DNA from: Bacteroidota bacterium | GTDB taxonomy: Bacteria; Bacteroidota; Ignavibacteria; Tepidaquicellales; Tepidaquicellaceae | Assembly (NCBI GenBank): GCA_018266835.1 | Contig: JAFDZP010000006.1 | Coordinates: forward strand, 124,001 to 188,000 | Direction of reading: 5' to 3' | DNA length: 64,000 nucleotides | Shown here: positions 7,138 to 62,998 of the stretch, in pieces | Numbering within the stretch: the first letter of the stretch is position 1 | Layout: each line of letters opens with the position of its first letter | Program-made: the position numbers and the translations under genes | The notes under the pieces: generated by a model | Database searches by the model: none | What the model was told of the DNA's origin: nothing | What the model saw: only the letters and a program-made list of their open reading frames with translations

Positions 7138-7236
7138 ATTGTAAAGATTTTTTAAAAATTTTAAGAATAAATGTGGGGTTGAAAATTGGTTTCAATATAT
7201 AAAATTAACTGATATTTTATAATACAAAATAAAGTA

Positions 7237-7272
7237 ATGAAAAAGGTCAAACTCCATTGGGAATTTGACCTT
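7237..7272 (-). terminator. Rho-independent terminator after the lyase gene
   Basis: A 9-bp perfect stem (AAGGTCAAA/TTTGACCTT) has a 12-nt loop and, on the minus strand, is followed by TTTTTC. It lies 7 nt past the stop of the gene at 7279–8655. Confidence 0.8.
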
Positions 7273-7278
7273 CTTAAA

Positions 7279-8655: not shown

Positions 8656-8808
8656 TATTTCGAATTATTTATATTCAAAAATAATGAAATTACCGCAGGT
8701 GAAATATGATTTAGCTCATAATTAGTTGCCGGTTTTCAGTTAATAGTTGCCGGTAAAAAAGCAACTGAACTCTTATGTTTCTGACAACTAATAACTGACA
8801 ACTAATAA

Positions 8809-10344: not shown

Positions 10345-10436
10345 CTGTGTGATTATGTTTCTGAAGTGAATTGATACTATACTAAATTAAGGTAATTTAG
10401 ATTTGAGATTAAAGTCCATTAATTAATTTAATACAA

Positions 10437-10468
10437 AAAGCCCTGAAAGTTTACACCTTCAGGGCTTT
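10437..10468. terminator. Bidirectional terminator hairpin downstream of desaturase
   Basis: AAAGCCCTGAA and TTCAGGGCTTT form an 11-bp stem with a 10-nt loop. A- and T-rich flanks on both sides would allow termination of the minus-strand desaturase gene at 10493. Confidence 0.75.
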
Positions 10469-10492
10469 CTAAAAATCTTGAATATTTAAAAA

Positions 10493-34341: not shown

Positions 34342-34414
<73 letters not shown>

Positions 34415-34423
34415 CGAATATAA

Positions 34424-34530: not shown

Positions 34531-35592
34531 TCATTTTTTTTGATTCAATTTATTACGCAAATCTTCAGTAATTACATCGGTATAAAACTCTTTTGTAGTC
34601 TCAATATCATCGTGCCCTAACAGGTTTGCGACATCCTGAATATGTAATGTTTTTGCATATAGAGTAGCAAATGTTTTTCTAAAAGTTCTCAAAGTATACT
34701 TATGTTTATCTAAAATACCAAGCTTGAGTTTTATTCTTCGGAATTTTCTTCCAACTCTCGCAACAGAATAACCGGGGAATAAATATTCCTCCTTACTTTT
34801 TGAAACAACCTCCTTCATTTCTATGAATAAAAATTCTTTTAATTCATCATATAATGGAAATTTTATTTCGTTACTGACTTTTGACATTCGAACCAATATT
34901 GAATTCTTATCGAAATCTAAATCACCTACTTTCAAATTCAACAAATCAATTGGTCTAATAGCAGTGAAGCCAAGCATCTTTAAAATACAATAAAAAGTAT
35001 AATCTCTTCGAAGCGATTCTTCAAGTAGTGCATACAACATTTCCTTTGGAAAAGTGGTAATGGCTTTTCTTGCTCTCTTTGGTAAATCTTTTGTTCTTAT
35101 CGGTGTTTTTAAAATATAGTCTTCATCAACTAGATAATTGAAGAAAGCTTTTAAATAATTCAAATAAGTTATGAGAGTAGCATTACTAACTATATTCATA
35201 TGAAGTTTAATATATCTGATAATGTGTTCAGGGGTAACTTCCTTAGGAGAAAAGTCTCCTGGAACAATATCTTGAAATCTTGCCATTGCATACTCAAATA
35301 CTTCTTGGTGAGACTTCGACCTAATTGAAAGCTTGATTCGATATTTTTCAATATGCTCAGATATTGTTAGTTGTTCCTTATTTTCATCGAGATATCCTGC
35401 AGATTGCTCATAGCTACGTTCTTTGATTTCAGTTTTTTTGATTTCGACTTCTTTTTCGATATCAGCCTTTATTTTTTCTACTTTTTTAAGATTTCTGGAA
35501 GTTATCTTTAATTGGGTGTTTATAGTTTTTCTTTTATTACCTACCCAAAAATCTATAAAGTAAAATCCCCTCTTCTTGTATAGAGAAGCCAT
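34531..35592 (-). CDS. Tyrosine recombinase (phage/ICE-type integrase)
   Basis: A 353-residue integrase. The N-terminal region has an AP2-like segment ('RGFYFIDFWVGNKRKT'), a core-binding domain follows (about 75–170), then the catalytic domain. The catalytic Arg is in 'GFTAIRPIDLLNLKVGDL', the second Arg region in 'YTLRTFRKTFAT', and 'LLGHDDIETTKEFYTD' carries the Gly-His and the nucleophilic Tyr. The usual HxLR His is replaced by Tyr/Thr. It ends about 115 bp from tRNA-Ala, so it probably drives integration there. Confidence 0.9.
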   Translation of the reverse strand: MASLYKKRGFYFIDFWVGNKRKTINTQLKITSRNLKKVEKIKADIEKEVEIKKTEIKERSYEQSAGYLDENKEQLTISEHIEKYRIKLSIRSKSHQEVFEYAMARFQDIVPGDFSPKEVTPEHIIRYIKLHMNIVSNATLITYLNYLKAFFNYLVDEDYILKTPIRTKDLPKRARKAITTFPKEMLYALLEESLRRDYTFYCILKMLGFTAIRPIDLLNLKVGDLDFDKNSILVRMSKVSNEIKFPLYDELKEFLFIEMKEVVSKSKEEYLFPGYSVARVGRKFRRIKLKLGILDKHKYTLRTFRKTFATLYAKTLHIQDVANLLGHDDIETTKEFYTDVITEDLRNKLNQKK

Positions 35593-45217: not shown

Positions 45218-45967
45218 CTACAATTTATAAATACTTTTCTCCAATTCTTTTTTTCTATCTCTCCATTCAGGCAACATTGAATTTAATAGATTATAAAATC
45301 GGCGATCATGATTACGGTAAAGTAAGTGACATAGTTCATGAATTATCACATAGTCTATACACCGAGTAGGCATTTTAATAAGTAATTGATTGAGAATTAA
45401 TTTATCCTTTGTATTACAGCTACCCCATCTGGTATGCATTAACTTAACAGAAAGTCTGGGCTTAGACAAAACTAATTTACTAAACATTTGAAAATTAATT
45501 TCCAGCCGTTCGTTGAATTTTTTCTTAGAAGATGTTTCATACCAATTCTTAATTAGAACATTTACAACCTTTGAGTTTGTTTTGTATTTAGTAAATACAT
45601 TGATAATGTTTCCATTCAAGCGGACATCTTCTAAATTAGACTTGTTTACTTTGAGTCTACAATGTCTTCCCAGATAATAATAAGATTCTCCACTTATAAA
45701 TTTCCGAGATGGAAATTTAGGTAACAGTGATTCGTAATAGTCTAAACTTTTAATTATCCATGATATTTTTTTCTGAACAATCTTATGGATTTTTTCAAGT
45801 GAAGATTTCGGGGGCGCATAAACTTTCACGCATTGCTCTGGGGTGACAATTATTCCAAGAGTTTTGCGGTTTTTAAATTCAACCGTGTACTCAATTTTCT
45901 TGCTTCCAAATTGCAACGAAAAATTTAGATCATTATTGGAAGCCATCTCAGTATCTATGTTTTGCAA
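45218..45967 (-). CDS. DUF45/YgjP-like zinc metallopeptidase associated with type I R-M
   Basis: A 249-residue protein with the zinc motif 'HELCH' (210–214) followed by 'LLYRNHDRRF', and 'WGSC' (181–184), the hallmarks of the YgjP/SprT-like metallopeptidase family (PF01863). Such genes commonly follow hsdR. It overlaps hsdR by 20 bp and is the last gene of the operon. Confidence 0.88.
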   Translation of the reverse strand: MQNIDTEMASNNDLNFSLQFGSKKIEYTVEFKNRKTLGIIVTPEQCVKVYAPPKSSLEKIHKIVQKKISWIIKSLDYYESLLPKFPSRKFISGESYYYLGRHCRLKVNKSNLEDVRLNGNIINVFTKYKTNSKVVNVLIKNWYETSSKKKFNERLEINFQMFSKLVLSKPRLSVKLMHTRWGSCNTKDKLILNQLLIKMPTRCIDYVIIHELCHLLYRNHDRRFYNLLNSMLPEWRDRKKELEKSIYKL

Positions 45968-48900
45968 TTTCGATAGATTTTTCTATTATCTCATCTTGTT
46001 CATTTATTGAAAGACCTATTTGATACTTATCATTCACCGCATATAAATAATCATCAATATCTTGGCGCATTTTATTCTTTACAATATTATTGTCATGCCA
46101 ATCAACAACGACATTATTCTTAATTATTTTGTCAATTTGAATTGCACATTCAGCAGACAATTGACTAACTTCAATTCCGTCTGATTCAAATTTTTCAAAC
46201 ACTTCAACGCATATTCCATAGAAGGCCTTAGCAATATCCCTGCCATCAAGTATTTCAGGCAACTCATCACCAACTCTATTTAACACAGAATTCATCAAGT
46301 CCTTGACTCTGGATAAATATTCTGCATCAGTTATTCTTTTTTGTCTAAATTCCTCTATCACTTCTTGAAGTAATTGAGAAAATTTCTTATAAAAGGCAGG
46401 ATCCTCTTCCATCTTTTCACTTATTGCCTTTTGTGTCCTTGAAGCTATCATATCTGCCTTGTATGCTGTACCTGTAACTTTTTCCACTTCTTCTTGAAAT
46501 CTATCAGTTTCAAAAATATTCACAGACTCAGTTATTTGAATTACTTCATTAGATGTTATATGTGTATCTATCAATCTTTGAATTTGAGCTTCATATTGTT
46601 TGTAATCAATTTTGTCCGAATATCTTTTTTGAACCGATGCTCTTAGGCTTAAAAACATCTTGGCATCATTCCTATACAAATTAATATTTTCAGTTGATGT
46701 CTTTTCAATGAACGAAAGATTTGAAAGGGCTATCTTCAGAGTTTTAGCAAATTTTGTTAATCGTCCATAAAATTTTTCTCTTATAAAATCATCGGCAAGA
46801 TACTGCTCGTATTCTTCTAAATCTTTTTTATTCTTAATTGTCTTAAAAATATCCCAGACCTGTGAATGCAGCTCCGGTAATTTTTCAATCTCTACATTTA
46901 TACTGATAAGAGTATTTTCTAAATCATCCTCTTCAAATCCTGCAAGTGCTTTATACTCTGAAAGAGCTAAATCTAAATTTCCTAAGATTCCATAATAATC
47001 GATAATATAGCCGAAGTCCTTTCCTTCGTACAATCTATTCACTCTTGCAATAGCTTGGAGAAGCTTATGGTCTTTTAAATTCTTAGCAATATATAAAACA
47101 ACATTTCTTGGAGCATCAAATCCCGTCAAAAGCTTATCTACAACTATGATAATTTCAGGTTTCTCATCCTTCTTAAAAGCGTTAATAATTTGTTCGTTAT
47201 ATTTTTTTTCATCGCCAAATCTACTCATCATGTTTTTCCAGAATGATTTAACTTTATCATCAGGCTCATTATCAATATCTTCATATCCTTCTCTGTCGTC
47301 TGGTGGCGAAATTAAAACTTCACTGCTGACAATACCAATTTCATCAAGATATTTTTTATATTTCATAGCAGCATTTTTTGACGATGTTGCTAGCTGCCCC
47401 TTAAATGCTGTTCCTTGCCATTCATTTCTGAAATGAATACTTATGTCCCACGCGATTCTATATATTTTTTGATCTGCTTCGTTTATATGGTCAGCAGAAG
47501 CAAATTTCTTTTTTAAATCTGCTTTTAGTTCATCAGTTAAAGATTTACAAACTAAATCAAAATATGTATCAATTGGCTTTTGATCTACCTCCTGAACAAT
47601 GTGTCTCCCTTCATAAAGCAATGGCACAACAGCTTTATCTTCTACTGCTTTATCTATAGTGTATGTTGGCTGTATCAGTCCTCCAAACTTTCCAATGGTA
47701 TCTCTCTCATTCCTTTTTATTGGAGTTCCCGTGAATCCTATAAAACATCCGTTTGGAAGAACTTTCATCATTTGTGTATTACTAAATCCATACTGACTTC
47801 TATGAGCTTCATCTATAAGTACAAATATTTCAGATGAAGGATTTGAAAATTCTCTTATGTTTCCGGCGGCTTCAAATTTATCAATTATAGTCGTAATAAT
47901 ATCCTTCGTATCATCATTGATAAGATTCATTAAATGTCTGCCGGATTTTGCTTTTATAAGTTTTTTTCCGCAATTCTTGAACGTTTTATATATCTGGTCA
48001 TCTAAGTCAACTCTATCTGTAACCAGAATAATTCTTGGTTCTAAAATTGTTTTCTCAAGAGCTATCGCTTTAGCAAGCATAACCATTGTAATAGACTTTC
48101 CGCTTCCCTGCGTATGCCATACAATTCCACCTCTTCTTTTACCATTCTCTTTAAATCTTATTCTTTGAATTAAATTCTCAACTGTAAAGAATTGCTGATA
48201 TCTTGCAATTTTCTTTTCTCCGCTATCGAATATGATAAACTTAAAAATTATATCCAGTAGTCTGTCGGGACGGCAAAGACTATATAATAATCTGTCCTGC
48301 TCATTAATCATTACTTCTTCCGATTCAAACGAATCAAAATAATCCTTAGAATATTTATAGGAAGATGAGTACAATTTATTTTTATTCTCTTCTGAAAGCT
48401 TTCTATTTTTAATCTCTGAAACTAAATTTTCATAATTATCTTTCTCATCCTCATTTCTAAAATGCTCTTTCCACTTTGCCCAGAATTCCTTTGATGTGCC
48501 GGTAGTTGCATACTTTCCTTCATTTGTAGAGAAGGCAAAAAGTATCTGTGAATACGCATAAAGTTTTTGAATGCCGTCTTCATGCTGATTCCTTAAGTTC
48601 TGTGATATTGCTTCATTTAAAGAATCTTTTATATCAGGTCTTTTACATTCCATTACTACTAAAGGAATACCATTAATAAATAATACTATATCCGGGCGAT
48701 ATGTTTTCTCGCCGCCTTCTCTTTGAACGTCAAATTCATCCGTTACATGAAAAACATTATTCTCAATATTTTCCCAGTCAATATACTTTATGTCAAAACT
48801 TTTTCTGTCCCCTTCAATAATTTGTTCAAAGCTTTTTCCCAAAGTAAGAAGGTCATAAATATTTTCGTTAGTTCTTATTAGCCCATCTTTTAATGGAAAG

Positions 48901-49151
48901 TTTTTTAAAGCATCTACAGCCCCTATAATATTACTCTCGCTGAAAAGGTATTCATTACCTTTGTGACTAATTCTATTAATTTTCCTTAACTGCTCGGTAA
49001 GGATTTCATCTAATATCACATTTGAACATTTATTAAAACGCAGCTTACGCGCCTGCGCAGGACTGATATACTCATAACCTAGATTAATAAGAAACTTTAA
49101 TGCAGGTATCTGCGATACGGGCTCTTCCTTAAATGATAATACTTCGGTCAT
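45948..49151 (-). CDS. hsdR: Type I restriction enzyme, restriction/translocase subunit HsdR
   Basis: A 1067-residue protein. The N-terminal PD-(D/E)XK nuclease has D154 and E168-x-K170 ('RPDIVLFINGIPLVVMECK'). The SF2 translocase has Walker A 'TQGSGKS' (347–353), 'DEAHRSQYG' (447–455) and 'FTGTPI'. The C-terminal helical domain docks to the methylase. Full length. It cleaves DNA lacking the host methylation after translocation. Confidence 0.95.
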   Translation of the reverse strand: MTEVLSFKEEPVSQIPALKFLINLGYEYISPAQARKLRFNKCSNVILDEILTEQLRKINRISHKGNEYLFSESNIIGAVDALKNFPLKDGLIRTNENIYDLLTLGKSFEQIIEGDRKSFDIKYIDWENIENNVFHVTDEFDVQREGGEKTYRPDIVLFINGIPLVVMECKRPDIKDSLNEAISQNLRNQHEDGIQKLYAYSQILFAFSTNEGKYATTGTSKEFWAKWKEHFRNEDEKDNYENLVSEIKNRKLSEENKNKLYSSSYKYSKDYFDSFESEEVMINEQDRLLYSLCRPDRLLDIIFKFIIFDSGEKKIARYQQFFTVENLIQRIRFKENGKRRGGIVWHTQGSGKSITMVMLAKAIALEKTILEPRIILVTDRVDLDDQIYKTFKNCGKKLIKAKSGRHLMNLINDDTKDIITTIIDKFEAAGNIREFSNPSSEIFVLIDEAHRSQYGFSNTQMMKVLPNGCFIGFTGTPIKRNERDTIGKFGGLIQPTYTIDKAVEDKAVVPLLYEGRHIVQEVDQKPIDTYFDLVCKSLTDELKADLKKKFASADHINEADQKIYRIAWDISIHFRNEWQGTAFKGQLATSSKNAAMKYKKYLDEIGIVSSEVLISPPDDREGYEDIDNEPDDKVKSFWKNMMSRFGDEKKYNEQIINAFKKDEKPEIIIVVDKLLTGFDAPRNVVLYIAKNLKDHKLLQAIARVNRLYEGKDFGYIIDYYGILGNLDLALSEYKALAGFEEDDLENTLISINVEIEKLPELHSQVWDIFKTIKNKKDLEEYEQYLADDFIREKFYGRLTKFAKTLKIALSNLSFIEKTSTENINLYRNDAKMFLSLRASVQKRYSDKIDYKQYEAQIQRLIDTHITSNEVIQITESVNIFETDRFQEEVEKVTGTAYKADMIASRTQKAISEKMEEDPAFYKKFSQLLQEVIEEFRQKRITDAEYLSRVKDLMNSVLNRVGDELPEILDGRDIAKAFYGICVEVFEKFESDGIEVSQLSAECAIQIDKIIKNNVVVDWHDNNIVKNKMRQDIDDYLYAVNDKYQIGLSINEQDEIIEKSIEIAKHRY

Positions 49152-50818: not shown

Positions 50819-52063
50819 TTAAATTTTTACTCTCACTTTTCCTGTGAGAAGAACTTGCATTAAACCCTTTTTCTGTTCGGTCAGTTTATTTAAATATTCT
50901 TTTAGAAAACAAATTTCTTTATCGATAGAGTTCAAAATGTTAGATATAGCTTTTTGTTCCTCAACATCGGGAATAAATATTTTAAGACTAAAAAAATCTT
51001 TCGGAGTAACATTTAATAATCCGTGAGCTCTTCCTCCTTCATGTGCAATCTTTGTAAGCCCTTCATTAATAATATTAGCAGCAAAGAAATGTTCAAAAAA
51101 GTCTGTACTGTTCATAAACTCTTTCTTCATTTTAAAGCATATATAAAGAGTAGTTACAACAGCTTTATCAAACTCTTTTAATAATTTAACCGCACCCCAG
51201 TCATATCCTTTAGAATAACTTTTATTATAAACAAACTCTCCTCGTTCTAATAAAAAATAATCTTTCAATTCTTCGCTCGCTACAAATTTATTGAAAAAAT
51301 CATTTTGCTTAACAAACCCTCGCTGCGCTGAAACTGTAACAACATTTTGATTTTTCTCTGTATTTTTTCTTGTTACTCTTTCGAATACATCAGAAAATTT
51401 TGTTTTTTTCCACTTCCCTTTAAAACCTTTTAATCTCTTTCCACTTGTTAACAATTGCTGCATTAAACCCTTTTTAAGTTTTTCTTTTGCAGCGATGAGG
51501 TTTTCGGTTTGTTCAATTGCGTTATCCCAAGTTTGCAAATATTTTACAATAGATTTCTGTTCTAGCAAGTTTGGGAATGGAATTGGAATACTATTAATAA
51601 TTTGAAGATTTAAACCACCTCTACCTCCATCACCAGTTGATAATTTCCTTAGTTCATCATACCTCATATCAAGATTATAATAAAGAAACTCAGGTACAAA
51701 TTTTTCATTAGGCAGTATAGCTGCAACTGATTGATTGGTAGATAGTTCAACCATATTAATTGCTACGGTTCCTCTTGTCTTTCCTTGTCCTGCAAGACCG
51801 ATTAGAATAGATTTTGGAGGAATCATTCTGGCACTTGAATTTTTTAGGCCCTCTTCGGTAATTCTTCCTTCAACTTCAAATATTTTCTTTTGGTTTAAAT
51901 CACCTGAACTCATCCACCTTACGGTACCATTATCCCAATAACTACTCACTCTCGTGCTAGGGGTGCCACCAGCAGTAGTTTTTGCGAACTCTTTGATTTT
52001 CTTTATTTCCCAATCTTGTGGAATTTTACCAACACTTGTTATCTTTGTTTGAACTTTATTCAT
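50819..52063 (-). CDS. hsdS: Type I restriction enzyme specificity subunit HsdS (two target-recognition domains)
   Basis: A 414-residue protein. TRD1 lies at about 10–170, a helical spacer ('EQKSIVKYLQTWDNAIEQTE') at about 163–215, TRD2 at about 220–370, then a second helical repeat ('EEQKAISNILNSIDKEI'). The two TRDs recognise the halves of a bipartite DNA target. It overlaps the 248-residue gene by 8 bp. A separate half-size S-like protein lies on the other side of hsdM. Confidence 0.93.
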   Translation of the reverse strand: MNKVQTKITSVGKIPQDWEIKKIKEFAKTTAGGTPSTRVSSYWDNGTVRWMSSGDLNQKKIFEVEGRITEEGLKNSSARMIPPKSILIGLAGQGKTRGTVAINMVELSTNQSVAAILPNEKFVPEFLYYNLDMRYDELRKLSTGDGGRGGLNLQIINSIPIPFPNLLEQKSIVKYLQTWDNAIEQTENLIAAKEKLKKGLMQQLLTSGKRLKGFKGKWKKTKFSDVFERVTRKNTEKNQNVVTVSAQRGFVKQNDFFNKFVASEELKDYFLLERGEFVYNKSYSKGYDWGAVKLLKEFDKAVVTTLYICFKMKKEFMNSTDFFEHFFAANIINEGLTKIAHEGGRAHGLLNVTPKDFFSLKIFIPDVEEQKAISNILNSIDKEICFLKEYLNKLTEQKKGLMQVLLTGKVRVKI

Positions 52064-52802
52064 TATCTTTCCTTTTCATAATTATAATAAAACCTTCGAC
52101 TGCTCCGGTATAAATGGGAATTTCTTCTCCAAAAATTGAATCAGTATTTTCACCGAAACCCTTAACGTATTCTTCTACAGATTCCTTAAAAACTGAAAAA
52201 TGTTTTATATTAACGTCTAATTTTGTATTGTTTTTATATTCTGATAATTCTGCTAAAGAATTTTCAATAGCTGGTATATAGTCCGCCTCGTTAAAACACT
52301 TCGTTGGAGTATCTAATCTTTTTAAAAATGCGATAAAGCAAACTTCTATGCTATTTTCACCAATTGGATCCGTTTCTAATAGGGCATGTTCAAATCTTAA
52401 AAAATCTTTTTTAACATCCCCCTTATGTGGATTGATAGCTTTTATTTCAATACCACAAACACTTCTCTTGAAGGGTTTACTAATGAATTTATCCAAGATT
52501 GCAATGTCTATTCTGCCTTTTCTAATACTTTCATGTTTTCTTTGTCTTATTGATGGAAACAGCTTCATAAAAGTAAATGCGTGAGATAAGAATTCGTCTG
52601 AATCATACTCTACTCTAATAGAAGAGAGAGTAGACAATTTCTTAGTATTTTCAAGCAGTTTTTTTACAACTCCAACTGTGATTAAATATTCAGTTATTTT
52701 ATCTTTCAACAATTCACTATAATCTTCATGCTTAACTAGGTCGTAATATGCTGTTTCAATTCCATTTTTTATGAGTTCTAATATTAAATCAATATTTATC
52801 AT
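52056..52802 (-). CDS. PD-(D/E)XK-like protein embedded between hsdM and hsdS
   Basis: A 248-residue protein. 'GRIDIAILDK' (D99) followed by 'VCGIEIKAINPHKGD' (E119-x-K121) is the pattern of a restriction-endonuclease-like fold. It overlaps hsdM by 4 bp and hsdS by 8 bp, so it is translated with the R-M genes. It may be an extra nuclease or a DNA-binding accessory subunit. Family not recognised. Confidence 0.55.
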   Translation of the reverse strand: MINIDLILELIKNGIETAYYDLVKHEDYSELLKDKITEYLITVGVVKKLLENTKKLSTLSSIRVEYDSDEFLSHAFTFMKLFPSIRQRKHESIRKGRIDIAILDKFISKPFKRSVCGIEIKAINPHKGDVKKDFLRFEHALLETDPIGENSIEVCFIAFLKRLDTPTKCFNEADYIPAIENSLAELSEYKNNTKLDVNIKHFSVFKESVEEYVKGFGENTDSIFGEEIPIYTGAVEGFIIIMKRKDNE

Positions 52803-54304
52803 CCTTTATAACCCAATTCCTTTAAATATTTATTCATTTCACTCCTTACATTCAGAAGTTGATTTTCAAGCTCAAGAATTTCTTTTTGAACTTTTACAAT
52901 ATCAACTTCCTCTTCCTCTTCAAATGTATCTACATACCGGGGGATGTTCAGATTATATTCGTTCTCCTTTATTTCATCAATAGTAGCTTTATAAGAATAT
53001 TTATCAATCGTTTCAAATTTTTCATAAGTAGAAACAATCTTATCTATATCCGAATCACGCAGTTTGTTTTGATTCGTTCCGCTTTCATACTCCTTACTTC
53101 CATCAATAAAAATAACATCAGTATTTTTTTTGCGCTTATTGAAAATAAGTATTGCAGCGGGGATACCGGTGCCGAAAAATAAATTAGCAGGAAGGCCAAT
53201 TACAGCTTCAAGAAGATTATCATTAATGAACTGCTCACGAATTCTACCTTCACTTGAGCCTCTGAATAAAACACCGTGCGGCACAATCACACCGGCTCTG
53301 CCAGTTTCGTTCAATGATTCTATCATGTGAGTAATAAAGGCATAGTCGCCTTTACTTTTAGGAGGAATACCTCTCCAGAACCTGTTAAACTTATCTGCCG
53401 GCGCATCATCTGCTCCCCATTTATCCAATGAGAATGGAGGATTGGCAACTACAACATCAAACTTCATCAGCTTGTCACCTTCGACATGTTTAGGATTACT
53501 AATAGTATTTCCCCATGCAATCTTAGCGTTATCAATTTTGTGAAGGAACATATTCATCTTACAAAGAGCGTAAGTGTTGCCATTAGACTCCTGACCGTAT
53601 AAAGAATAATTTTGTGAACCAACTTCATTAGCTACTTTAATAAGAAGTGAGCCTGAACCGCAGGTAGGATCATAAATTCTATTCCCTTCTTTGGGTTTTA
53701 AAAGCTTTGAAAGTAATTTTGAGATGAATTGAGGAGTATAAAACTCCCCGCCCTTTTTACCTGCGCCACTTGCAAACATATATAAAAGATATTCATATGT
53801 ATCACCAATTACATCACGCTCACCTATATGCGAAGGTCTGAAATCTAAAGCCGGTTTGGAAAAATCCTCAATTAAATTTTTAAGTCTTAGGTTTTTATCT
53901 TTAGTTTCACCAAGATTAATTTCAGAATTGAAATCTATACCTCTAAAAACGTCTTCCAGCTTTCCTGAGTTTGCCTCTTCAAGATTTGCTGTAGCTATAT
54001 TAATAAGTTCACCAATGTTAACATCATTGCGATGGGAATAAAGGTAATCAAAGGTGCTTTCATTTGGGACAACAAATCTTTCTCTTTTAAGAGCGCGATC
54101 TACTCTATCGGCATCGCCTTTATACTTTATTGAATATTCTTCAACTTTATCTTTCCACAAATCACTGATGTATTTAATGAAAAGAAAAACGAGAATGTAA
54201 TTTTTATATTGGTCGGGGTCAACGACTCCCCTGAAGGTATCGCATGCATTCCATGCTACTGAGTTCACCTCATCTTGAGTTGGGATTTTTTTTGTATCAA
54301 TCAT
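52799..54304 (-). CDS. hsdM: Type I restriction enzyme methyltransferase subunit HsdM
   Basis: A 501-residue N6-adenine methyltransferase. The helical HsdM N-domain (about 10–150) is followed by 'GGEFYTP', SAM-binding 'DPTCGSGS' (212–219) and catalytic 'NPPF' (288–291). With HsdS it methylates host DNA and, with HsdR, directs restriction. The C-terminal helix binds HsdS. It overlaps the half-S gene by 8 bp upstream. Confidence 0.95.
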   Translation of the reverse strand: MIDTKKIPTQDEVNSVAWNACDTFRGVVDPDQYKNYILVFLFIKYISDLWKDKVEEYSIKYKGDADRVDRALKRERFVVPNESTFDYLYSHRNDVNIGELINIATANLEEANSGKLEDVFRGIDFNSEINLGETKDKNLRLKNLIEDFSKPALDFRPSHIGERDVIGDTYEYLLYMFASGAGKKGGEFYTPQFISKLLSKLLKPKEGNRIYDPTCGSGSLLIKVANEVGSQNYSLYGQESNGNTYALCKMNMFLHKIDNAKIAWGNTISNPKHVEGDKLMKFDVVVANPPFSLDKWGADDAPADKFNRFWRGIPPKSKGDYAFITHMIESLNETGRAGVIVPHGVLFRGSSEGRIREQFINDNLLEAVIGLPANLFFGTGIPAAILIFNKRKKNTDVIFIDGSKEYESGTNQNKLRDSDIDKIVSTYEKFETIDKYSYKATIDEIKENEYNLNIPRYVDTFEEEEEVDIVKVQKEILELENQLLNVRSEMNKYLKELGYKG

Positions 54305-54869
54305 TTTTTCTTAAAATTTTATTGTGGATGATTTCGTTTATTAACAAAGTTCGCTTAGTCGAGATTTGTTTTAGTAATTCTCTTTCCAACATTTGTTGAT
54401 TCTCTATTAAAGCAATTGTTTTTTGAGTTTTCAAATCCGTTATAGGAATTTTTAACTCGATTAATTTTGATTTAGGAATTGAAGGAATAAATGTACCGTG
54501 AGTATTCGCTTTAAAAAAATCTTGTGCTGGTTTAGAATTTAAATACCAGGATAAGTATTCCGGTAAAACATTTTCCGAAGTAATTCTAATTATGAAAAAG
54601 GTTGATGATGCGGCTACTTCGCCAAGTTCACCATTATAATGAAAAGCAAAATTTCTATTTCCTTTGGCAGCGAAAAGTACATCGCCAGATTTTAGATATT
54701 GATACTTGTCTACACAGTATCTATCTAATTTGAATAAATTATCTTTATTTAGTAAATTGTTCTGAATATCTTTTCCCTGAATAAGAAAAACAGATGCTTG
54801 TTCTGCATTTATATTTTTACTGTTATATTTCAATCCAGTAAAAATTGATGTTAGACTTCCTAATTGCAT
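54297..54869 (-). CDS. Half-size HsdS-like protein (single target-recognition domain)
   Basis: A 190-residue protein with one TRD ('MQLGSLTSIFTGLKYNSKNI', 'YLKSGDVLFAAKGNR', 'FFIIRITSENVLPEYLSWYL') and a C-terminal helix ('QKTIALIENQQMLERELL'). It is the first gene of the R-M operon. It may form alternative specificity by dimerising or exchanging with the full HsdS, or be a leftover. Confidence 0.8.
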   Translation of the reverse strand: MQLGSLTSIFTGLKYNSKNINAEQASVFLIQGKDIQNNLLNKDNLFKLDRYCVDKYQYLKSGDVLFAAKGNRNFAFHYNGELGEVAASSTFFIIRITSENVLPEYLSWYLNSKPAQDFFKANTHGTFIPSIPKSKLIELKIPITDLKTQKTIALIENQQMLERELLKQISTKRTLLINEIIHNKILRKND

Positions 54870-54909: not shown

Positions 54910-54931
54910 AATATCCTAAATGAAGGATATT
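54910..54931. promoter_or_regulatory. AATATCCT/AGGATATT inverted repeat between divergent operons
   Basis: An 8-bp perfect inverted repeat with a 6-nt spacer lies in the ~60-bp gap between the minus-strand R-M operon and the plus-strand glycosylase cassette. It is a candidate operator controlling one or both. Confidence 0.4.
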
Positions 54932-55649
54932 GTCAAGTTATTTATTCTGGATAATTTGCTGTACTCTATTTATAATATCGTTTATGTGCTCAAGTTTACT
55001 ATCAGCTTCAAATATTTTGAAAGAAAAAGCTCCATTTATGAGAGCTTTTATGAAAAACTATATATTTGAGCAGATCAAAGTTCCATTGTCAATTGAATCA
55101 ATAGAGAAAAAAGAAAGCTATGAGAAAATTATTGAATTTTGCTTAAATACAAGAAGAAGAATAAGGAATGAGCATTTAGAAAGTGGTAAAAAATATTTTT
55201 CTGATAATTATGCGCTATTTCGAGAGTTGTTATTAGTAAAAAAAGATGTAATTCAATTACAACAATTAGTTTACAAAGCTGAAGGAGTCGGGCAGAAGAT
55301 TGGGAGTTTCATATTGGTAGTTTTTATACATTATATACTTCAAGATAATGAAATGAGTAAGCAGTTAAATGTACCTTTGGATACACATGTCATAAGAATT
55401 TTTGAAGAGGCTTTTAATGAAAAACCTCCAAATGTAGGTTATAAAATTGATGCAAAAGAGTATAGAGATTTTCAAGGGAAATTGAAGGAAAATTCAGCTG
55501 ACGGTAACACAATTTACTTCGATTATTTTTGGTTTATTGGAAAGGTATTTCATACTAAAATTAATCCTGGCAGAAATAATAAAGGATATCGTTTATGTTC
55601 AATGTGTTGGATAAAGGATGTTTGTCAATCAAATGATAAATGGGAGTAA
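54930..55649 (+). CDS. HhH-GPD DNA glycosylase/AP lyase, endonuclease III-like
   Basis: A 239-residue protein. The helix-hairpin-helix 'EGVGQKIGSF' (K123 at the catalytic Lys position) is followed by 'VPLDTHVIRIFEEAF' (D151 at the catalytic Asp position), as in endonuclease III. The C-terminal 'LCSMCWIKDVCQ' has C-x2-C-x5-C (C223, C226, C232), matching three of the four cluster cysteines; the first is missing. It would excise a modified base and may cut the strand. The start is uncertain: TTG at 54930 gives a hydrophobic N-terminus, and ATGs at 54984, 55038 and 55050 are alternatives. First gene of a three-gene cassette. Confidence 0.7.
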   Translation: MSSYLFWIICCTLFIISFMCSSLLSASNILKEKAPFMRAFMKNYIFEQIKVPLSIESIEKKESYEKIIEFCLNTRRRIRNEHLESGKKYFSDNYALFRELLLVKKDVIQLQQLVYKAEGVGQKIGSFILVVFIHYILQDNEMSKQLNVPLDTHVIRIFEEAFNEKPPNVGYKIDAKEYRDFQGKLKENSADGNTIYFDYFWFIGKVFHTKINPGRNNKGYRLCSMCWIKDVCQSNDKWE

Positions 55650-55713
55650 CTGTAAATTATAATCTGAACAACAAGCTACATTCTTTAAGTACTCAATCAG
55701 CATAAACCCCAAA

Positions 55714-56364
55714 ATGAACAAAAAGGAAATTTTCGATTCATCGTTAATAATAAGAGATGAACTGAAACTCAAAAACGATTTTGAAGTTAATCCAATTGAC
55801 ACAACTCTTTTACCTATTCCTCCATTCAGTCTTTCAGATGATATAAAGTTAATTATTTTAGGTCAAGATCCCACAGTAAAAATACCTGAAAGCCGGTTAA
55901 AAATAAAACACACATTAAATTTAGATAAAGGTGGTTCGCTAAGAAAATATATCAATGACATTTGTATAGCACTCGAAATTTCATTTGAGAATGTTTATGC
56001 TACGAATGTTTTCAAATATTTTTATACAATTCCACCGGAAAGAACTATGAATGTAATTTATAGTCATCTCGATAAAAACCTTGAACTTTTAGAAAGAGAA
56101 CTTAGCAATTATCCGGATGTTCCAATAGTTACATTGGGTTTACCGGTATTGAGATTATTAACAAAAGAAAATTCAGAAGTCAGTTATTTTTGGGATTACA
56201 ATAGAAGAACTAAGCTAACTGATGGAGCTTTTAAATTTTGTATTGGAAGTGAAAATAAACTTCGAAGAGATTTTTTTCCTTTGCCACACCAACCAAGTTT
56301 AGCTAAAGATTTCTATAGTAGTAATTTGCAAGATTATTTAAAGTTTGTTAAAAGCAAAATCTAA
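55714..56364 (+). CDS. Uracil-DNA glycosylase superfamily protein
   Basis: A 216-residue protein. 'KLIILGQDPT' (GQDP at 50–53) matches UDG motif A ('GQDPYH') and 'PLPHQPSL' (190–196) matches the C-terminal His/Pro/Ser motif. 'VPIVTLGLPVLRLL' is the strand and helix before it. The Tyr-His after GQDP is replaced by Thr-Val, so its base specificity probably differs from classical UDG. It lies 64 nt after the HhH glycosylase and 12 nt before the nuclease-like gene. Confidence 0.75.
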   Translation: MNKKEIFDSSLIIRDELKLKNDFEVNPIDTTLLPIPPFSLSDDIKLIILGQDPTVKIPESRLKIKHTLNLDKGGSLRKYINDICIALEISFENVYATNVFKYFYTIPPERTMNVIYSHLDKNLELLERELSNYPDVPIVTLGLPVLRLLTKENSEVSYFWDYNRRTKLTDGAFKFCIGSENKLRRDFFPLPHQPSLAKDFYSSNLQDYLKFVKSKI

Positions 56365-56376
56365 TAAGGAGTAATC

Positions 56377-57678
56377 ATGGAACGTCTCAATTACTTTTGC
56401 CCATATCAATCTAAAAGTGCTAAACATGAAGACCAATTAACAAGAGCTTTTATGGTTCTTATGAAATATTCTTTTCATGTCTCTTCATTATTCTATAACT
56501 ACTGTAATGTTGAATTTAAACGTTCTGCAAAAGCAACTGAACTCCCATCATTGAGTCAACTGATAAATTATGACTGGGTATTTGATACACAAAAATCTGA
56601 TCCTATTATTGATTCAGAACTTTTAGTTTCAGTATTAATAACAGATAAGGAATTCGAAAAATCAAATGAAAATATAGTTGCTGATCCTGAAAGGAGTGCC
56701 AGATATGATGGTATAATTAAATTCGGAAAAGTCTTAACAATGATAATAGAAGTAAAACCACAATCTGAAAACGTTTGGTTTAAACAGCTTAACCCATCAC
56801 GGAAAAATCTTAGTGAGGAAACTAAGGTACAGGAAATTCCTGTTATATTACAATGGAAAGAAATAATCAAACAGTTAAATGCTATATTAGAATTACCAAC
56901 TTTGAATTCACAAGAAAGATTTTTGATTGATGATTTTTTGGAATTTGTTGATGATTTTTTCCCAACTTTAAATCCATATGATAAGTTCGAATTATGTAAA
57001 AGTAACAAAGTTTTATTGTTAAGAAGAATTGAAAACATCTTAAAGGAAATTGTAAAACAAGACACAGTAATTGATTATCATAGAGGTTGGGGAAATATCA
57101 TTAAAGTCGGAGAACAGTTTAAGGATTTCAATCAAATTGGATTAATTTTACAGCAAAATGATTCAGACAAATCCTGGCACATTGAGTTAAGTATTTATTT
57201 TGCAGATACAGTCAGTCAAGCAAGAAAATTTTATGATAAAGATTTTAACTTGACTAGTTTCAAAGAACGAGGATGGGAAATTTTACCAAATTTTCATGTT
57301 TCATTTAGGAGTCAAAATCTAGTTTATTTTAACTCAAAAGATATTCAAACGTATTTAGACTATTGGAGAAATAATCAACAAAATATACGGCAATACAAAA
57401 TTATTGAAATAAGAAGCTTTTTAGAAGAACTAACAAATAAACAAATAATCGTCTTCGAAGAAAAAAACAAGGATGAACTGACCAAAAAGTTTTTTAATAC
57501 AAAAATGCCCACACTTAATTTTTGTCCGGGAATAGGCTTTAAGTTTCAAATAAAATCAGATATTGCAATCACTATGGATAATAATAATAAGTTATCTTCT
57601 CTTATTAAAGAAAAAATTTTTGAAGCTCTAGCTATAATGGGTTATACTGATAACGATATTTATTCATTTCTTAAATAA
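56377..57678 (+). CDS. PD-(D/E)XK-like protein, third gene of the glycosylase cassette
   Basis: A 433-residue protein. Residues 105–130 'SARYDGIIKFGKVLTMIIEV' give D111 and E125-x-K127, and the N-terminal 'KHEDQLTRAFMVLM' supplies the helix Glu common to PD-(D/E)XK nucleases. The C-terminal half ('DKSWHIELSIYFADTVSQAR') is not recognised and may bind DNA or regulate. It would cut DNA near abasic sites made by the two glycosylases, if the cassette works as a unit; this is inference. Confidence 0.55.
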   Translation: MERLNYFCPYQSKSAKHEDQLTRAFMVLMKYSFHVSSLFYNYCNVEFKRSAKATELPSLSQLINYDWVFDTQKSDPIIDSELLVSVLITDKEFEKSNENIVADPERSARYDGIIKFGKVLTMIIEVKPQSENVWFKQLNPSRKNLSEETKVQEIPVILQWKEIIKQLNAILELPTLNSQERFLIDDFLEFVDDFFPTLNPYDKFELCKSNKVLLLRRIENILKEIVKQDTVIDYHRGWGNIIKVGEQFKDFNQIGLILQQNDSDKSWHIELSIYFADTVSQARKFYDKDFNLTSFKERGWEILPNFHVSFRSQNLVYFNSKDIQTYLDYWRNNQQNIRQYKIIEIRSFLEELTNKQIIVFEEKNKDELTKKFFNTKMPTLNFCPGIGFKFQIKSDIAITMDNNNKLSSLIKEKIFEALAIMGYTDNDIYSFLK

Positions 57679-57795: not shown

Positions 57796-58110
57796 TTAAT
57801 TCTTATTGAGCTTCTCCCACAACTCCTTCGCATTCACTTCTGTAAAGTGTAAATCTCTTTCAATTCCTAAACTCATTCTGCCCTTATAATTTTCAAGTTC
57901 ACTCTTTGAAAAGCTCCCTATCTCCCATTCGAAGATATGGCAAATTCCCCAGCAATATTCTGGATCGTTCGGATCTTGATTCATAAAATACCATGTACCT
58001 GCACCGGTTGGATTGAAGAATTTTGCAACAATTACCTGTGACTCCAGGTCACTTCCTTTCGGATATTGCTCTTGAGCTTTTGCTTCTATTTCTTTAGTGA
58101 AAAGTTTCAT
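57796..58110 (-). CDS. DUF2958-family protein
   Basis: A 104-residue protein. 'QVIVAKFFNPTGAGTWYFMN', 'WGICHIFEWEIGSFSKSELE' and 'GIERDLHF' match DUF2958 (PF11171), which is frequent on plasmids and integrative elements. It lies at the 3' end of the ubiquitin-like module, in the same direction. Confidence 0.85.
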   Translation of the reverse strand: MKLFTKEIEAKAQEQYPKGSDLESQVIVAKFFNPTGAGTWYFMNQDPNDPEYCWGICHIFEWEIGSFSKSELENYKGRMSLGIERDLHFTEVNAKELWEKLNKN

Positions 58111-58540: not shown

Positions 58541-59596
58541 TTATAAATATGGATTTCCATAATACATTGCACCTTCCATTTCACTTAATCTTCCTTCAAG
58601 CTCATAAATGTTATCATTCACTTCTTCCAGTAATATTCTTTTCAGAAGATTGTAGTCGAGATTTTCTTCGGAGAGTTTTTCTAGTATCTTATTTGCTTTT
58701 TCTCTGTCTTCTTTATCCAGGTCAAACATACTGTTATTCTTTGTTTTTTCTCGACTGCGGTCGATGTGCATTCCAAATGGAAGTTCTCCATCTTTGTTAG
58801 CTCTTCTGCTTATTGACTCTACAAACATATCAGCTTCTCTGTCATCTGTTGAACCGTATGCTTTACCATTTCCCTTGGAATCATTTAATAATAATCTTCT
58901 GTTTGTTCTGCTGGAAGACTTAAAGAAACTGTCTCTTACAGTATTTATCTTTGATATGTCTATCTGCTCAAGCCCGGTATCTACTACTATTTCAATCGGC
59001 AGCTGAATAATGGATTCTGAATGCTTTAGATTGTAAACTCCTCCGACAAATCCATCCCTTCGAGTATAAAGAACGGAAAGTTTGAAATTCTGATTAATGA
59101 AGTTTTTATCTGTTGAACTGAAGCTGTTCAATCCATCCGGGTGTCTGTGAATAACAGTATTAAAGTTATAATCTTCAGGGATATAATCTATTGATGTAGA
59201 AGACACCACTTGCTGCGGGATGTAGAACTCTTCAGATAACCTGATGATGTTATCTTTCTCAGTAAGATTTACAAGTATTGAAAATTCTTCTCCGGTCAGT
59301 CTATCTGCAATTTGATTACATGTAAGTAAAAGCTTGAGTGGAATTATTACTTTTACTGATTCAAGTATCTTGATGCCGCTTTCCCATGCGCCGGTTGTAG
59401 ATCTGTTGTTGGATAAATCTGCTTTACCCACATCCTTCGAGTTGGGTTTATTATTGTTCTTTTCATTTTTAGTTAGCTTTTTAAATTTTATTATCTCGGT
59501 CTTTCTGTTGGCTGTATTATTTTCTTCTTTACTATCAGAAGAATTTATTTCATCCAAACAGATTGTACCGTTAGATTTAGAGCTATTATCTTTCAT
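58541..59596 (-). CDS. JAB/JAMM metallopeptidase (Ubl-specific isopeptidase-like; PRTRC protein A/BilC-like)
   Basis: A 351-residue protein. The JAMM metal motif is complete: 'HRHPDGLNSFSSTD' gives H150-x-H152-x10-D163, with upstream Glu in 'TGEEFSILVN' (E103/E104). The N-terminus (1–65) is disordered and Lys/Asn-rich; the C-terminus (about 285–351) is helical. JAB proteins in these modules process or remove the ubiquitin-like protein. It is downstream of the E1-like gene. Confidence 0.8.
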   Translation of the reverse strand: MKDNSSKSNGTICLDEINSSDSKEENNTANRKTEIIKFKKLTKNEKNNNKPNSKDVGKADLSNNRSTTGAWESGIKILESVKVIIPLKLLLTCNQIADRLTGEEFSILVNLTEKDNIIRLSEEFYIPQQVVSSTSIDYIPEDYNFNTVIHRHPDGLNSFSSTDKNFINQNFKLSVLYTRRDGFVGGVYNLKHSESIIQLPIEIVVDTGLEQIDISKINTVRDSFFKSSSRTNRRLLLNDSKGNGKAYGSTDDREADMFVESISRRANKDGELPFGMHIDRSREKTKNNSMFDLDKEDREKANKILEKLSEENLDYNLLKRILLEEVNDNIYELEGRLSEMEGAMYYGNPYL

Positions 59597-59761
59597 TGTT
59601 TTGTTGAATTAATTCATTAAAGATAACCTCTCACTTTACCCAATGAGGAAGTCAGGTAAAGTGAAAGAGTTTTAGAGAGAACAATTGATGTAAAATCGAA
59701 TTGAACTATAGGAATTAGAAATTTAATAGAAATGAGTTTCAGATATTTGCTGATTTAATAA

Positions 59762-60535
59762 TTATTGATTAAGCAGCGTTTTCACATTCACTGTCTTAGT
59801 CTGAACTGACTTATTCTTAACAATCAGCATTTCAATTACAGCAGCTGCGCTCAGGAGCTGAGGTGTTCCAAAGAACGAAGGAGTAAATCTATATCTAGAG
59901 TCTGTGCCCCATCTTCCTGAATCAAAATCGTTCAGGCATATTGTTCCTTCAAAACCGTCATATCCGAGCTTCACATACTGTGGAAACTCAATCACCGGAG
60001 CTTGAACTTCGTCACCATTATTCGTCATACCTGGAACATGATTCAGATAAGGAGCTGATTGAGTAACAGAATAATTTCTTTTCAATCTTTTGTTTTTATT
60101 CTTTTCAGCTTTCTCTTTAAGTTCTTTATCCATTCTCTGTTTGATTTTGAACTCATACAATGAGTCTTTCAACCGTAATGTATCCGTACAGTCAAAGAAG
60201 TATTCTACTCCTTCGAACTTACCCAGCATATCAGCTTCAAAGAACTGTTCAAATCCTAAAACGATACAGTCTTTTCTGCGCTCAGAAATTAACTCCTTAA
60301 CTGCTTTTGTTTTATGTTTTCCGATTTGTGATTCTTTAAATAATGTTCTGTTGAGATTGGAAGCTTCAACTTTATCATTATCGAATATAAATATGGAGCC
60401 TACTCCAATTAATGCCAGGTCAAGAGCTACCCAACTTCCTATTCCTCCAAGCCCTGCAACAATTGCAATTGCATTACTGAAATCCGGAATGAGCTTGGTT
60501 TGCCTGTTGTTGATTTGTGTTATTGTACTTTCCAT
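59762..60535 (-). CDS. ThiF/E1-like activating enzyme (PRTRC ThiF/BilD-like)
   Basis: A 257-residue E1-superfamily protein. The nucleotide loop is 'GLGGIGSWVA' (28–37); 'FDNDKVEASNLNRTLF' has the ATP-contacting Asp, Asn and Arg residues; 'GKHKTKA' and 'FDCTDTLRLKD' follow. Cys200 in 'EGTICLND' is a candidate thioester Cys. It would adenylate and load the ubiquitin-like protein. It lies between the E2-like and JAB genes. Confidence 0.85.
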   Translation of the reverse strand: MESTITQINNRQTKLIPDFSNAIAIVAGLGGIGSWVALDLALIGVGSIFIFDNDKVEASNLNRTLFKESQIGKHKTKAVKELISERRKDCIVLGFEQFFEADMLGKFEGVEYFFDCTDTLRLKDSLYEFKIKQRMDKELKEKAEKNKNKRLKRNYSVTQSAPYLNHVPGMTNNGDEVQAPVIEFPQYVKLGYDGFEGTICLNDFDSGRWGTDSRYRFTPSFFGTPQLLSAAAVIEMLIVKNKSVQTKTVNVKTLLNQ

Positions 60536-60603
60536 TTTCTGCTTGTTATAGAGTTTTTAACTTTTTTGAATAACTTAACGGCGGATTTAAATGTTTTTTT
60601 CAT
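60520..60603 (-). CDS. Micro-ORF overlapping the E1-like start, 27 residues
   Basis: ATG at 60603 to TAA at 60520 encodes a basic peptide (MKKTFKSAVKLFKKVKNSIT…) that overlaps the E1-like start by 16 nt. It may act in translational coupling or be a chance ORF. Confidence 0.25.
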   Translation of the reverse strand: MKKTFKSAVKLFKKVKNSITSRKWKVQ

Positions 60604-60813
60604 TGCTGTTTTTGGTTTTTAGATTAAGAAAAGATGTTTGTTAAAAGAAATTTATAAATTGATTACATTGATGTGAGGGGGACCTAAAGAATATTGAATG
60701 ATATTAAATACTGACCAACAGATAAAAATTTAATATCAAAATTCTAAAAGGATGCTTTTTTACTAAAAGAATTCATTTTTCAAATAGCGGTGCCTTCCTT
60801 TTTTATAAGAACT

Positions 60814-61746
60814 TTAACTGGCCTTCCACTTGTATTCTTCTTTGAGTTCGTAGGACACATTGGGCTTATAATAACTGCTGTCCAAATGAATTTTCTCGTA
60901 GGTTGCAGAGATTTCATCCAGAAGTGTTACAAGCTTAAGGGGATCCGATAGGTTAATCTCTCTGTCTAAGAATGTTCCGGGGCAAGCTTCACTAAAACCT
61001 CCTGTCTGACAGTTCGGGTGATGTCCTGTTGTTGAAAGATGAATAGTTCCATAAGTGATTTTAGGATGAAGTATGTTCACGTATATTCCTCTTATCATGC
61101 AAATGGTAGAGTTATATTCAAGAACCTTTCCTGAGTTGTAGTATCCGCTAGTTACTTCAAACGGAGGATTATAGAACTTGTAAGCGTTAACAGAGTTATC
61201 TTTCATGAGCAGGTACCATTCACTTCCTGATATTGCTTTAATGATCTCAATTAAAGATTCTCCAACCACAGCAGATTGATAAAGCTGTTTAAGTCTTGAT
61301 AGCTCATTCTGATAAAGACTGTTTACCTGATTGATAGCAGTCTGAAGCTCAGTTTTGAATACTGATTTTAACTGCTTCAATGAGTTTACATAATCAAGCT
61401 CAGATTCTATTAAGATTTCCTTTACAAGGATGTTTTCCTGCTTTGATTTCAACATTCTTTCAGTAAAGTCCTTGAACTTCACTTCTTTTGAAATAATGTT
61501 TACTAAGTGCTTATCAGATTGTTTGAGAATGTTGGAAATGTTTTTCCCGGTTGATTTCTTTTTGCTCTTTGTGGATTTAGGTGTTTGTCCAGCAGTGTTG
61601 TCAGCTCCAACATTTGCTTCCTGCTCAATTACGCTTGCTCTGCTTTCATCTGATTCTCCACCCGACTCTTCCATCCTTTGAAAGAATGAAATGTTTAATT
61701 GATTAACTCCGGATAAGTTTGTTTGTTCTGTTTGATTTGAAGACAT
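60814..61746 (-). CDS. E2-like (UBC-fold) protein with N-terminal coiled coil (Prok-E2/PRTRC protein B-like)
   Basis: A 310-residue protein. Residues 1–68 are disordered, 70–165 a coiled coil, and 175–295 resemble an E2 core: 'HPKITYGTIHLSTTGHHPN', then Cys246, 'EACPGTFLD' (Cys255) and the final helix 'LLDEISATYEKIHLDSSYY'. In E2s the catalytic Cys follows 'HPN…G…ICLD'; Cys255 is the best match here. It would carry the activated Ubl. Between the Ubl and E1-like genes. Confidence 0.6.
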   Translation of the reverse strand: MSSNQTEQTNLSGVNQLNISFFQRMEESGGESDESRASVIEQEANVGADNTAGQTPKSTKSKKKSTGKNISNILKQSDKHLVNIISKEVKFKDFTERMLKSKQENILVKEILIESELDYVNSLKQLKSVFKTELQTAINQVNSLYQNELSRLKQLYQSAVVGESLIEIIKAISGSEWYLLMKDNSVNAYKFYNPPFEVTSGYYNSGKVLEYNSTICMIRGIYVNILHPKITYGTIHLSTTGHHPNCQTGGFSEACPGTFLDREINLSDPLKLVTLLDEISATYEKIHLDSSYYKPNVSYELKEEYKWKAS

Positions 61747-61928
61747 ATGTGTTAATCGATTAATGATTTATGTTTTCATTTATTTTTATCCGCAGCAGAT
61801 ATTCTCTATTATCATAAGTCACTATAACTCACACTTTTTAATATTAAAGGTACAAGACTTATTTATTTTTTTGAGGAATATCTGCCGGGGAAATTCTGCT
61901 TACTCGCAGCCTTACATCTATAGGACCT

Positions 61929-62198
61929 TTAAGCTGCTGCTACATTAAATCTTACAAGAGTTAAATCTCCTGTAAAATTACCTGCTTCAATCTGGTCCGG
62001 ATTGATGTTTCTGTTTTGAGAGTCATATATATCAAACTTCGATATATCGTTATCTCTGGCAATAGCTTTAATCTTGTCAGTAAGCGCTACTCCTTCAAGA
62101 CCTGTTACATCGTAATTCTCAGAATTACATCTGACCTGTCTTCTATTTTGCTGAAGAGTATCAGTACCACCGCCATTGTTGTTTGTGTTCCATGACAT
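61929..62198 (-). CDS. Ubiquitin-like protein (Prok_Ub/PRTRC protein C-like)
   Basis: An 89-residue protein. An N-terminal tail ('SWNTNNNGGGTDTLQQ') precedes a ubiquitin-like fold ('RRQVRCNSENYDVTGLEGVA', 'LTDKIKAIARDNDIS', 'FDIYDSQNRNI', 'GDLTLVRFNV'). It ends VAAA without a Gly-Gly tail, so either conjugation uses another end or processing is unusual. It is directly upstream of the E2-like gene. Confidence 0.65.
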   Translation of the reverse strand: MSWNTNNNGGGTDTLQQNRRQVRCNSENYDVTGLEGVALTDKIKAIARDNDISKFDIYDSQNRNINPDQIEAGNFTGDLTLVRFNVAAA

Positions 62199-62295
62199 TG
62201 CAATATTCCTTTCTGTTTAAATGTTTGTGAATTATTATGTTTGAAAATGTATTTAAAGATTGAATTGTAGTAAGTAAGAATACGAAATGATTTGG

Positions 62296-62574
62296 TTACA
62301 ACATGTAAAGCTCCGCAAGGAAGTATGAGGGGATGGAATCTTTTGGTTCAGCAAGTTCAGAATTAACTTCTTCTTCATCAAGCTCAACCTCCGCTTCACT
62401 AAAATCTAAATTTGTTTCACCATGGTCATCTGAATCTACATACTCTTCATTTACTCGATTTCTGTAATCAGAAATTTTTCTTAATGCATCTTCTTCAGAC
62501 TCTGCATAAACTGTTCCTTTGAGATTTCCATATTTTGAATAATCATATGGAATGGAAAATGAATATTTATTCAT
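62296..62574 (-). CDS. Small acidic protein in the Ubl module (paralogue 1)
   Basis: A 92-residue protein. 'MNKYSFSIPYDYSKYGNLKG' and 'VYAESEEDALRKIS' give a beta strand and helix; the C-terminal half is very acidic ('EAEVELDEEEVNSELAE') and ends 'SIPSYFLAELYML'. It shares its start and end with the next gene. Role unknown; position suggests a substrate, adaptor or Ubl-like partner. Confidence 0.6.
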   Translation of the reverse strand: MNKYSFSIPYDYSKYGNLKGTVYAESEEDALRKISDYRNRVNEEYVDSDDHGETNLDFSEAEVELDEEEVNSELAEPKDSIPSYFLAELYML

Positions 62575-62614
62575 TGGACATTAAATTTGAATTGTAAAAA
62601 TTATTGATAAGGAA

Positions 62615-62935
62615 TTATAAGAGTTGTAGTTCTGATAGAAAGTAATCAGGAATGAGTGAGTAATGAGAAGTTTGAGTTTGAGAAGGAATATTATTATCAA
62701 GGTTTACAGGTGGTGGGTTTGGTATGGTTACATCTTCTTCTTCGGTTTCAACTGTCATTTCATCATATGAGAAATTTGTGCCGTCTGAGCCATCATCATC
62801 ATAATCTTCATCTAAGCGGTTGGAACTATCCAGTGCAAGCTCTAATGCTTCTTCACTGTTTTCTGCATAAATATAACAAGTTAATTTTCCGAACTGAACA
62901 TAATTGTATGGGATTGTTACGAGGTATTTATTCAT
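62615..62935 (-). CDS. Small acidic protein in the Ubl module (paralogue 2)
   Basis: A 106-residue protein from the ATG at 62935 ('MNKYLVTIPYNYVQFGKLTC', 'IYAENSEEALELAL'). An acidic middle and a C-terminal 'SLIPDYFLSELQLL' match paralogue 1. An in-frame start 63 nt upstream is rejected because the paralogue begins at MNKY. It is the first gene of the module. Confidence 0.6.
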   Translation of the reverse strand: MNKYLVTIPYNYVQFGKLTCYIYAENSEEALELALDSSNRLDEDYDDDGSDGTNFSYDEMTVETEEEDVTIPNPPPVNLDNNIPSQTQTSHYSLIPDYFLSELQLL

Positions 62936-62998
62936 AGTTTGGTTGGTTTTCTTTCTATATATATTATACCAGATAATTTGATTGTGAATATATTTCAA

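Follow-up and report, generated by a model that had tools for sequence, protein, structure and literature searches.

We propose that three separate defence-type genes, in tandem on the plus strand at positions 54984-57678 of the window (the whole 64,000-nt stretch of DNA analysed here), came together as independently mobile cargo beside a type I restriction-modification (R-M) operon, on an island at a tRNA-Ala gene. In this joint reading, to which we assign a probability of about one half, gene 2 would be a base-excision enzyme, gene 1 a lyase-type enzyme and gene 3 a nuclease. The first-pass annotation had proposed a single three-gene defence system, a claim left unsupported by our neighbourhood comparison and by BLAST of all three proteins against the loci of their relatives. 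No neighbour pair was found: none of the 11 other homologous loci (four for gene 1, six for gene 2 and one for gene 3) has a second member of the trio adjacent, with the limit that the contigs of two gene 2 relatives (L019 and L020) start 327 and approximately 570 bases before the gene, so that an upstream partner there would lie beyond view, and that the contig of one gene 1 relative (L003) spans only 11.4 kb. At this sampling depth, homologues that do not co-occur are the outcome that the first-pass annotation had itself named as a refutation. An additional, decayed gene 3 fragment is likewise partnerless, and one genome (G031) carries relatives of genes 1 and 2 on the same contig, 42 kb apart. 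The most interesting point, and one worth following, is the recurrent linkage of the gene 2 family, which belongs to the uracil-DNA glycosylase (UDG) superfamily, to type I R-M operons.

Gene 1 was searched for in samples of 395 and 245 genomes from the phylum or class, gene 2 in samples of 30 and 395, and gene 3 in samples of 296, 44, 391 and 123, the samples overlapping in part; the 395-genome samples yielded gene 1 in two other genomes and gene 2 in two other genomes. All three families are small, comprising 5, 7 and 2 loci for genes 1, 2 and 3, respectively, when the window is included. No homologue of any of the three genes was found in plasmids or named phages, and a PDB sequence search with the three proteins returned no relevant match.

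The three plus-strand open reading frames (ORFs) that the first-pass annotation had placed beside a divergent R-M operon are present, and their homologues elsewhere indicate that they are genuine genes. Gene 1 (54984-55649) encodes a 221-aa protein resembling the HhH-GPD (endonuclease III) superfamily, gene 2 (55714-56364) a 216-aa protein resembling UDG-superfamily DNA glycosylases, and gene 3 (56377-57678) a 433-aa PD-(D/E)XK-like protein. The annotated gaps of 64 nt (55650-55713) and 12 nt (56365-56376) are exact. For gene 1, an ATG start at 54984 is likelier than the TTG at 54930 chosen by the ORF tool (239 aa), because the homologue in L003 begins at the former position. No terminator-like site was found on the plus strand between the three genes. 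From the 12-nt spacing and a good ribosome-binding site ahead of gene 3, we infer that genes 2 and 3, at least, may be co-transcribed and co-selected.

The neighbouring operon runs on the minus strand from 54869 down to 45948 and is of type I, with hsdR, hsdM, one full-length and one half-length specificity (S) gene. The half-length S gene (54297-54869; 190 aa; PADLOC Specificity_I, E = 6.7e-17) is divergent from gene 1 and is followed by hsdM (52799-54304; Pfam N6_Mtase, E = 4e-111, plus HsdM_N), a Tin-related cargo gene (52056-52802; PADLOC Tin, E = 8e-23), full-length hsdS (50819-52063; Pfam Methylase_S, E = 7e-32) and hsdR (45948-49151; Pfam HSDR_N and SWI2_SNF2). The operon thus combines two specificity genes of different length, and the Tin-like gene sits between hsdM and the full-length hsdS. 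No match to an Rfam family was found within 45-64 kb of the window.

The host is an Ignavibacteria genome (G000) of 4.0 Mb. The GC content of the left half of the window is approximately 0.37 and falls to approximately 0.30 past a tRNA-Ala(GGC) gene (34342-34415) and a tyrosine-integrase-like gene (34531-35592); the low value persists to the end of the contig, with 0.28-0.29 in each of genes 1-3 and 0.28-0.32 over the trio and its surroundings. Since the GC drop starts after the tRNA-Ala/integrase-like pair and reaches the contig end, we regard the trio as cargo of a large integrated island, of which this pair is the probable left end. A search for 10-14-base direct repeats of the tRNA-Ala 3' end found none downstream, and hence no far end of the island was located. 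Several other features of the region were recorded. A minus-strand operon at 58541-62998 contains a ThiF/E1-like gene (PADLOC E1-E2 matches for 59762-60535) along with small genes whose products may be ubiquitin-like; the operon is possibly a defence system based on ubiquitin-like conjugation. A DUF2958 gene 80% identical to the one at 57796-58110 adjoins a different cassette in a genome of the same genus (L016:280-2776; G396:C27), whose products are an HNH protein, a second protein that carries a GINPG-like motif (UDG-like by eye, with no Pfam match) and a member of the UDG superfamily (PF03167, E = 7e-10). Beyond the window, a patatin-like protein and TerC/TerD-like genes were recognised by eye.

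Gene 2 matches PF03167 above the cut-off (E = 2.6e-6; 28.0 bits versus 24.3) and carries the motifs GQDPT (50-54), ATN (96-98) and HQPS (192-195). The first-pass annotation had read a GQDP motif followed by Thr-Val rather than Tyr-His; this is correct, and Thr followed by Val or Ile is found in all seven family members, as are ATN and PH with the late His. The family 1 (Ung) motif GQDPYH, in which Tyr excludes thymine, does not occur in any of the seven, and of the four cysteines that bind the [4Fe-4S] cluster in family 4 UDG only two have counterparts in number, C84 and C176. The match between a housekeeping UDG and gene 2 by hhalign was weak (E = 0.007), and PADLOC-DB 2023 contained no match. 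The conservation of GQDPT[VI], ATN and the late His makes glycosylase chemistry plausible for gene 2, with a predicted pocket more open than that of Ung.

The six other loci with gene 2 relatives are L017, L018, L019, L020, L094 and L095. At three of them, in two Ignavibacteria genomes and one Bacteroidales genome, the UDG gene is a member of a type I R-M operon: it lies between hsdS and hsdR, one gene away from hsdR, in L017 and L018, and directly upstream of hsdR in L019 (Bacteroidales). In L017, the gene comes after Menshen NsnABC, and Menshen and the UDG gene (6693-10663) are all embedded in the R-M operon. The relative in L020 is near a transposase-like gene at the contig end, and those in L094 and L095 are each paired with a small unknown gene outside any type I R-M operon. 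The R proteins of the three UDG-bearing operons are 58-91% identical to one another and 26-28% identical to the R protein of the window; two of these operons share near-identical R-M genes (91% identical R) and are not independent cases.

Our analysis supports gene 1 as a remote relative of the HhH-GPD/endonuclease III proteins in a separate small family, an assignment made at the level of sequence profiles. By hhalign, an alignment of its five members matched two endonuclease III families of related genomes at E ~1e-5, compared with 0.009 for the best of 60 column-shuffled controls and 0.34 or worse for unrelated profiles. In these matches the cluster cysteines, the lysine of the helix-hairpin-helix (K105) and an aspartate of the catalytic type (D133) fell in register. 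K105 and D133 are the K123 and D151 that the first-pass annotation had seen as kept, renumbered from the corrected start, and they are invariant in all five members. The annotation had also counted only three cluster cysteines, and they are indeed C205, C208 and C214; the first cluster position, after a G(K/H).F motif, is His190 in the window, whereas the four other members have Cys there. The spacing is H-X14-C-X2-C-X5-C in the window and C-X5-C-X2-C-X5-C in L015, and the canonical C-X6-C-X2-C-X5-C [4Fe-4S] loop of endonuclease III is absent from the window protein, in which a 3Cys-1His metal site is possible. No member matched PF00730, even at E = 10, and no curated family was matched in Pfam or PHROG, also at permissive limits, or in PADLOC. 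Kinship with phage hypermodification enzymes (aGPT-Pplase and the HMUDK helical domain) was considered and rejected, with no Pfam or PHROG match at permissive limits. The AlphaFold model of gene 1 was poor (mean pLDDT 51.8); Foldseek with this model gave nothing significant, and the top rows in VIA, though consistent with the assignment, were all weak (Z 3.0-4.1), including EndoIII-3 (Z 4.1; rmsd 4.1; 77 aligned), an EndoIII-3 double mutant, and the archaeal Ogg MjaOgg (Z 3.0; rmsd 4.8; 122 aligned). The enzyme families of the first-pass annotation are supported for gene 1 by profile-profile match, for gene 2 by a Pfam match above the cut-off, and for gene 3 by a conserved D...ExK motif, as described below.

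A scan of genome contigs with gene 1 gave no homologue, and the viral contigs yielded one gene 1 locus only and no relative of gene 2 or gene 3. The four other loci are diverse. In L003, an 11.4-kb prophage contig, the gene adjoins a phage integrase gene; in L015, it stands alone, and the closest member of a gene cluster with a type III restriction gene is approximately 3.6 kb away; in L014, it lies alone amid ordinary chromosomal genes without a defence partner; and in L030, it follows an N6/N4 DNA methyltransferase gene on the same strand after a gap of 114 nt, in a defence-rich region. The L014 copy, together with the membership of both proteins in repair superfamilies, is what would be expected if genes 1 and 2 were ordinary base-excision repair enzymes carried on the island, guarding the element or the host from damaged bases with no role in defence. 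We consider this rather unlikely, because the host already encodes its own family 4 UDG and HhH-GPD (EndoIII-type) proteins elsewhere in the genome; moreover, both families are rare and patchy, and most of their loci are mobile or defence-related.

Judged from its motif, gene 3 is probably a PD-(D/E)XK nuclease. It has one full-length relative, in G523, which is 53% identical and retains D111 and E125-V-K127 of the annotated D...ExK motif as well as E18. A match in G640 is a decayed 77-aa fragment, and one in G435, in a gyrB/uppP neighbourhood, was rejected as spurious. Pfam, PADLOC, NCBIfam and PHROG contained no family for gene 3, and its single-sequence model (pLDDT 33.6) was too poor to use. 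At the locus of the full-length relative (L023:5846-10166), an AAA/peptidase M41 gene, another PD-(D/E)XK-like gene (recognised by motif only) and the gene 3 relative lie in a row, and this row is possibly an uncharacterised three-gene unit.

Reasoning from the observed families, motifs and neighbourhoods to substrates, catalysis and an anti-phage role, we infer that the product of gene 2, and perhaps that of gene 1, probably backs up the R-M system by cutting uracil or modified bases out of phage DNA. Under our preferred reading of three independent cargo genes, gene 2 comes from a small family found repeatedly as a passenger of type I R-M operons and would most likely create abasic sites in incoming DNA by removing uracil or a modified base; phages that evade restriction through base modification would still be damaged, following a Brig-like logic. 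Gene 1 has the Lys and Asp that are paired in bifunctional glycosylase/AP lyases and could excise a base and nick the DNA unaided, so that a separate abasic-site nuclease would not be needed. The first-pass annotation had assigned that cutting to the nuclease, for which this analysis gave no support; gene 3 would be a nuclease not necessarily acting on abasic sites. A more specific arrangement, which we regard as unlikely, is that the UDG-superfamily glycosylase is the dedicated partner of one type I R-M lineage. The operon would cut unmodified foreign DNA, and the glycosylase would strip bases from DNA that is modified or contains uracil, so that base modification would no longer offer an escape; gene 1, where present, would add AP-lyase nicking.

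It is very unlikely that the trio is one recently assembled base-excision defence operon, in which the two glycosylases would generate abasic sites or nicks for the nuclease to finish the cleavage. The tandem order, the short gaps, the terminator-free intergenic regions and the alike low GC of the three genes are consistent with such an operon; however, similar GC is common to the surrounding island too, no two of the genes stand side by side at any other locus, and the neighbours differ from gene to gene. A role of gene 1 as a restriction glycosylase or modification-dependent enzyme that cooperates with a DNA methyltransferase, as enzymes of the PabI type do, is highly doubtful as well: the L030 relative follows a methyltransferase gene and the window gene lies beside a type I M/S/R set, but the window R-M system already has its own hsdR, and the phage and chromosomal copies of gene 1 have no adjacent methyltransferase gene. 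At L030:7236-9920, the site-specific DNA methyltransferase gene, the gene 1 relative and, downstream, a DUF3800-like gene lie on one strand, and the first two are possibly a methyltransferase/glycosylase pair.

If the gene 2 family works like Brig1, it would represent base-excision enzymes placed inside type I restriction operons, and this would give a simple account of how one locus could deal with phages whether or not their bases are modified. Base-excision immunity would then have recruited a second lineage, the EndoIII-like one of gene 1.

Among known proteins, gene 1 resembles endonuclease III (Nth) and HhH-GPD proteins in two profile-aligned features, the GVGxK...VPxD catalytic core and the C-terminal C-X2-C-X5-C, and differs in a long insert before C-X2-C, a His as the first cluster residue, and the lack of a PF00730 match above threshold. 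Gene 2 shares PF03167, motif A (GQDP), the Asn in ATN and the late His with family 4 and family 1 UDGs; it differs from family 1 in Thr-Val versus Tyr-His and from family 4 in having two Cys, hence no Fe-S cluster. The PabI restriction glycosylases have an unrelated fold, HALFPIPE (PMC10273834); what gene 1 would have in common with them is the idea of base excision as restriction and one relative that follows a methyltransferase gene. Gene 2 relatives among hsdS-hsdR cargo recall type I R-M operons with embedded cargo, such as Menshen NsnABC in L017; in contrast, the trio of the window is divergent from its operon, and the R-M lineage is distinct (26-28% in R).

Immunity based on base excision by a UDG-superfamily enzyme was reportedly first described in 2024, for Brig1. 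Brig1 is a defence-island glycosylase of this superfamily that removes alpha-glucosyl-hmC (PMC11078745), and Brig3 (Brig3-BapA) is another, which removes 5hmC (PMC13160076). The likeness of gene 2 to them is one of superfamily and setting: it encodes a UDG-superfamily protein in a defence island, as a single gene or in a small operon, for which non-canonical base excision is proposed. It differs in its family-1-like GQDP followed by Thr, in its association with type I R-M, and in that no BapA-like partner was identified. Brig1 homologues are found alongside restriction and BREX genes, and the authors of the Brig1 study argued that phages resistant to restriction are dealt with by enzymes of this kind (PMC11078745). 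The gene 2 family, with members inside type I R-M operons, is in line with this logic of backing up restriction.
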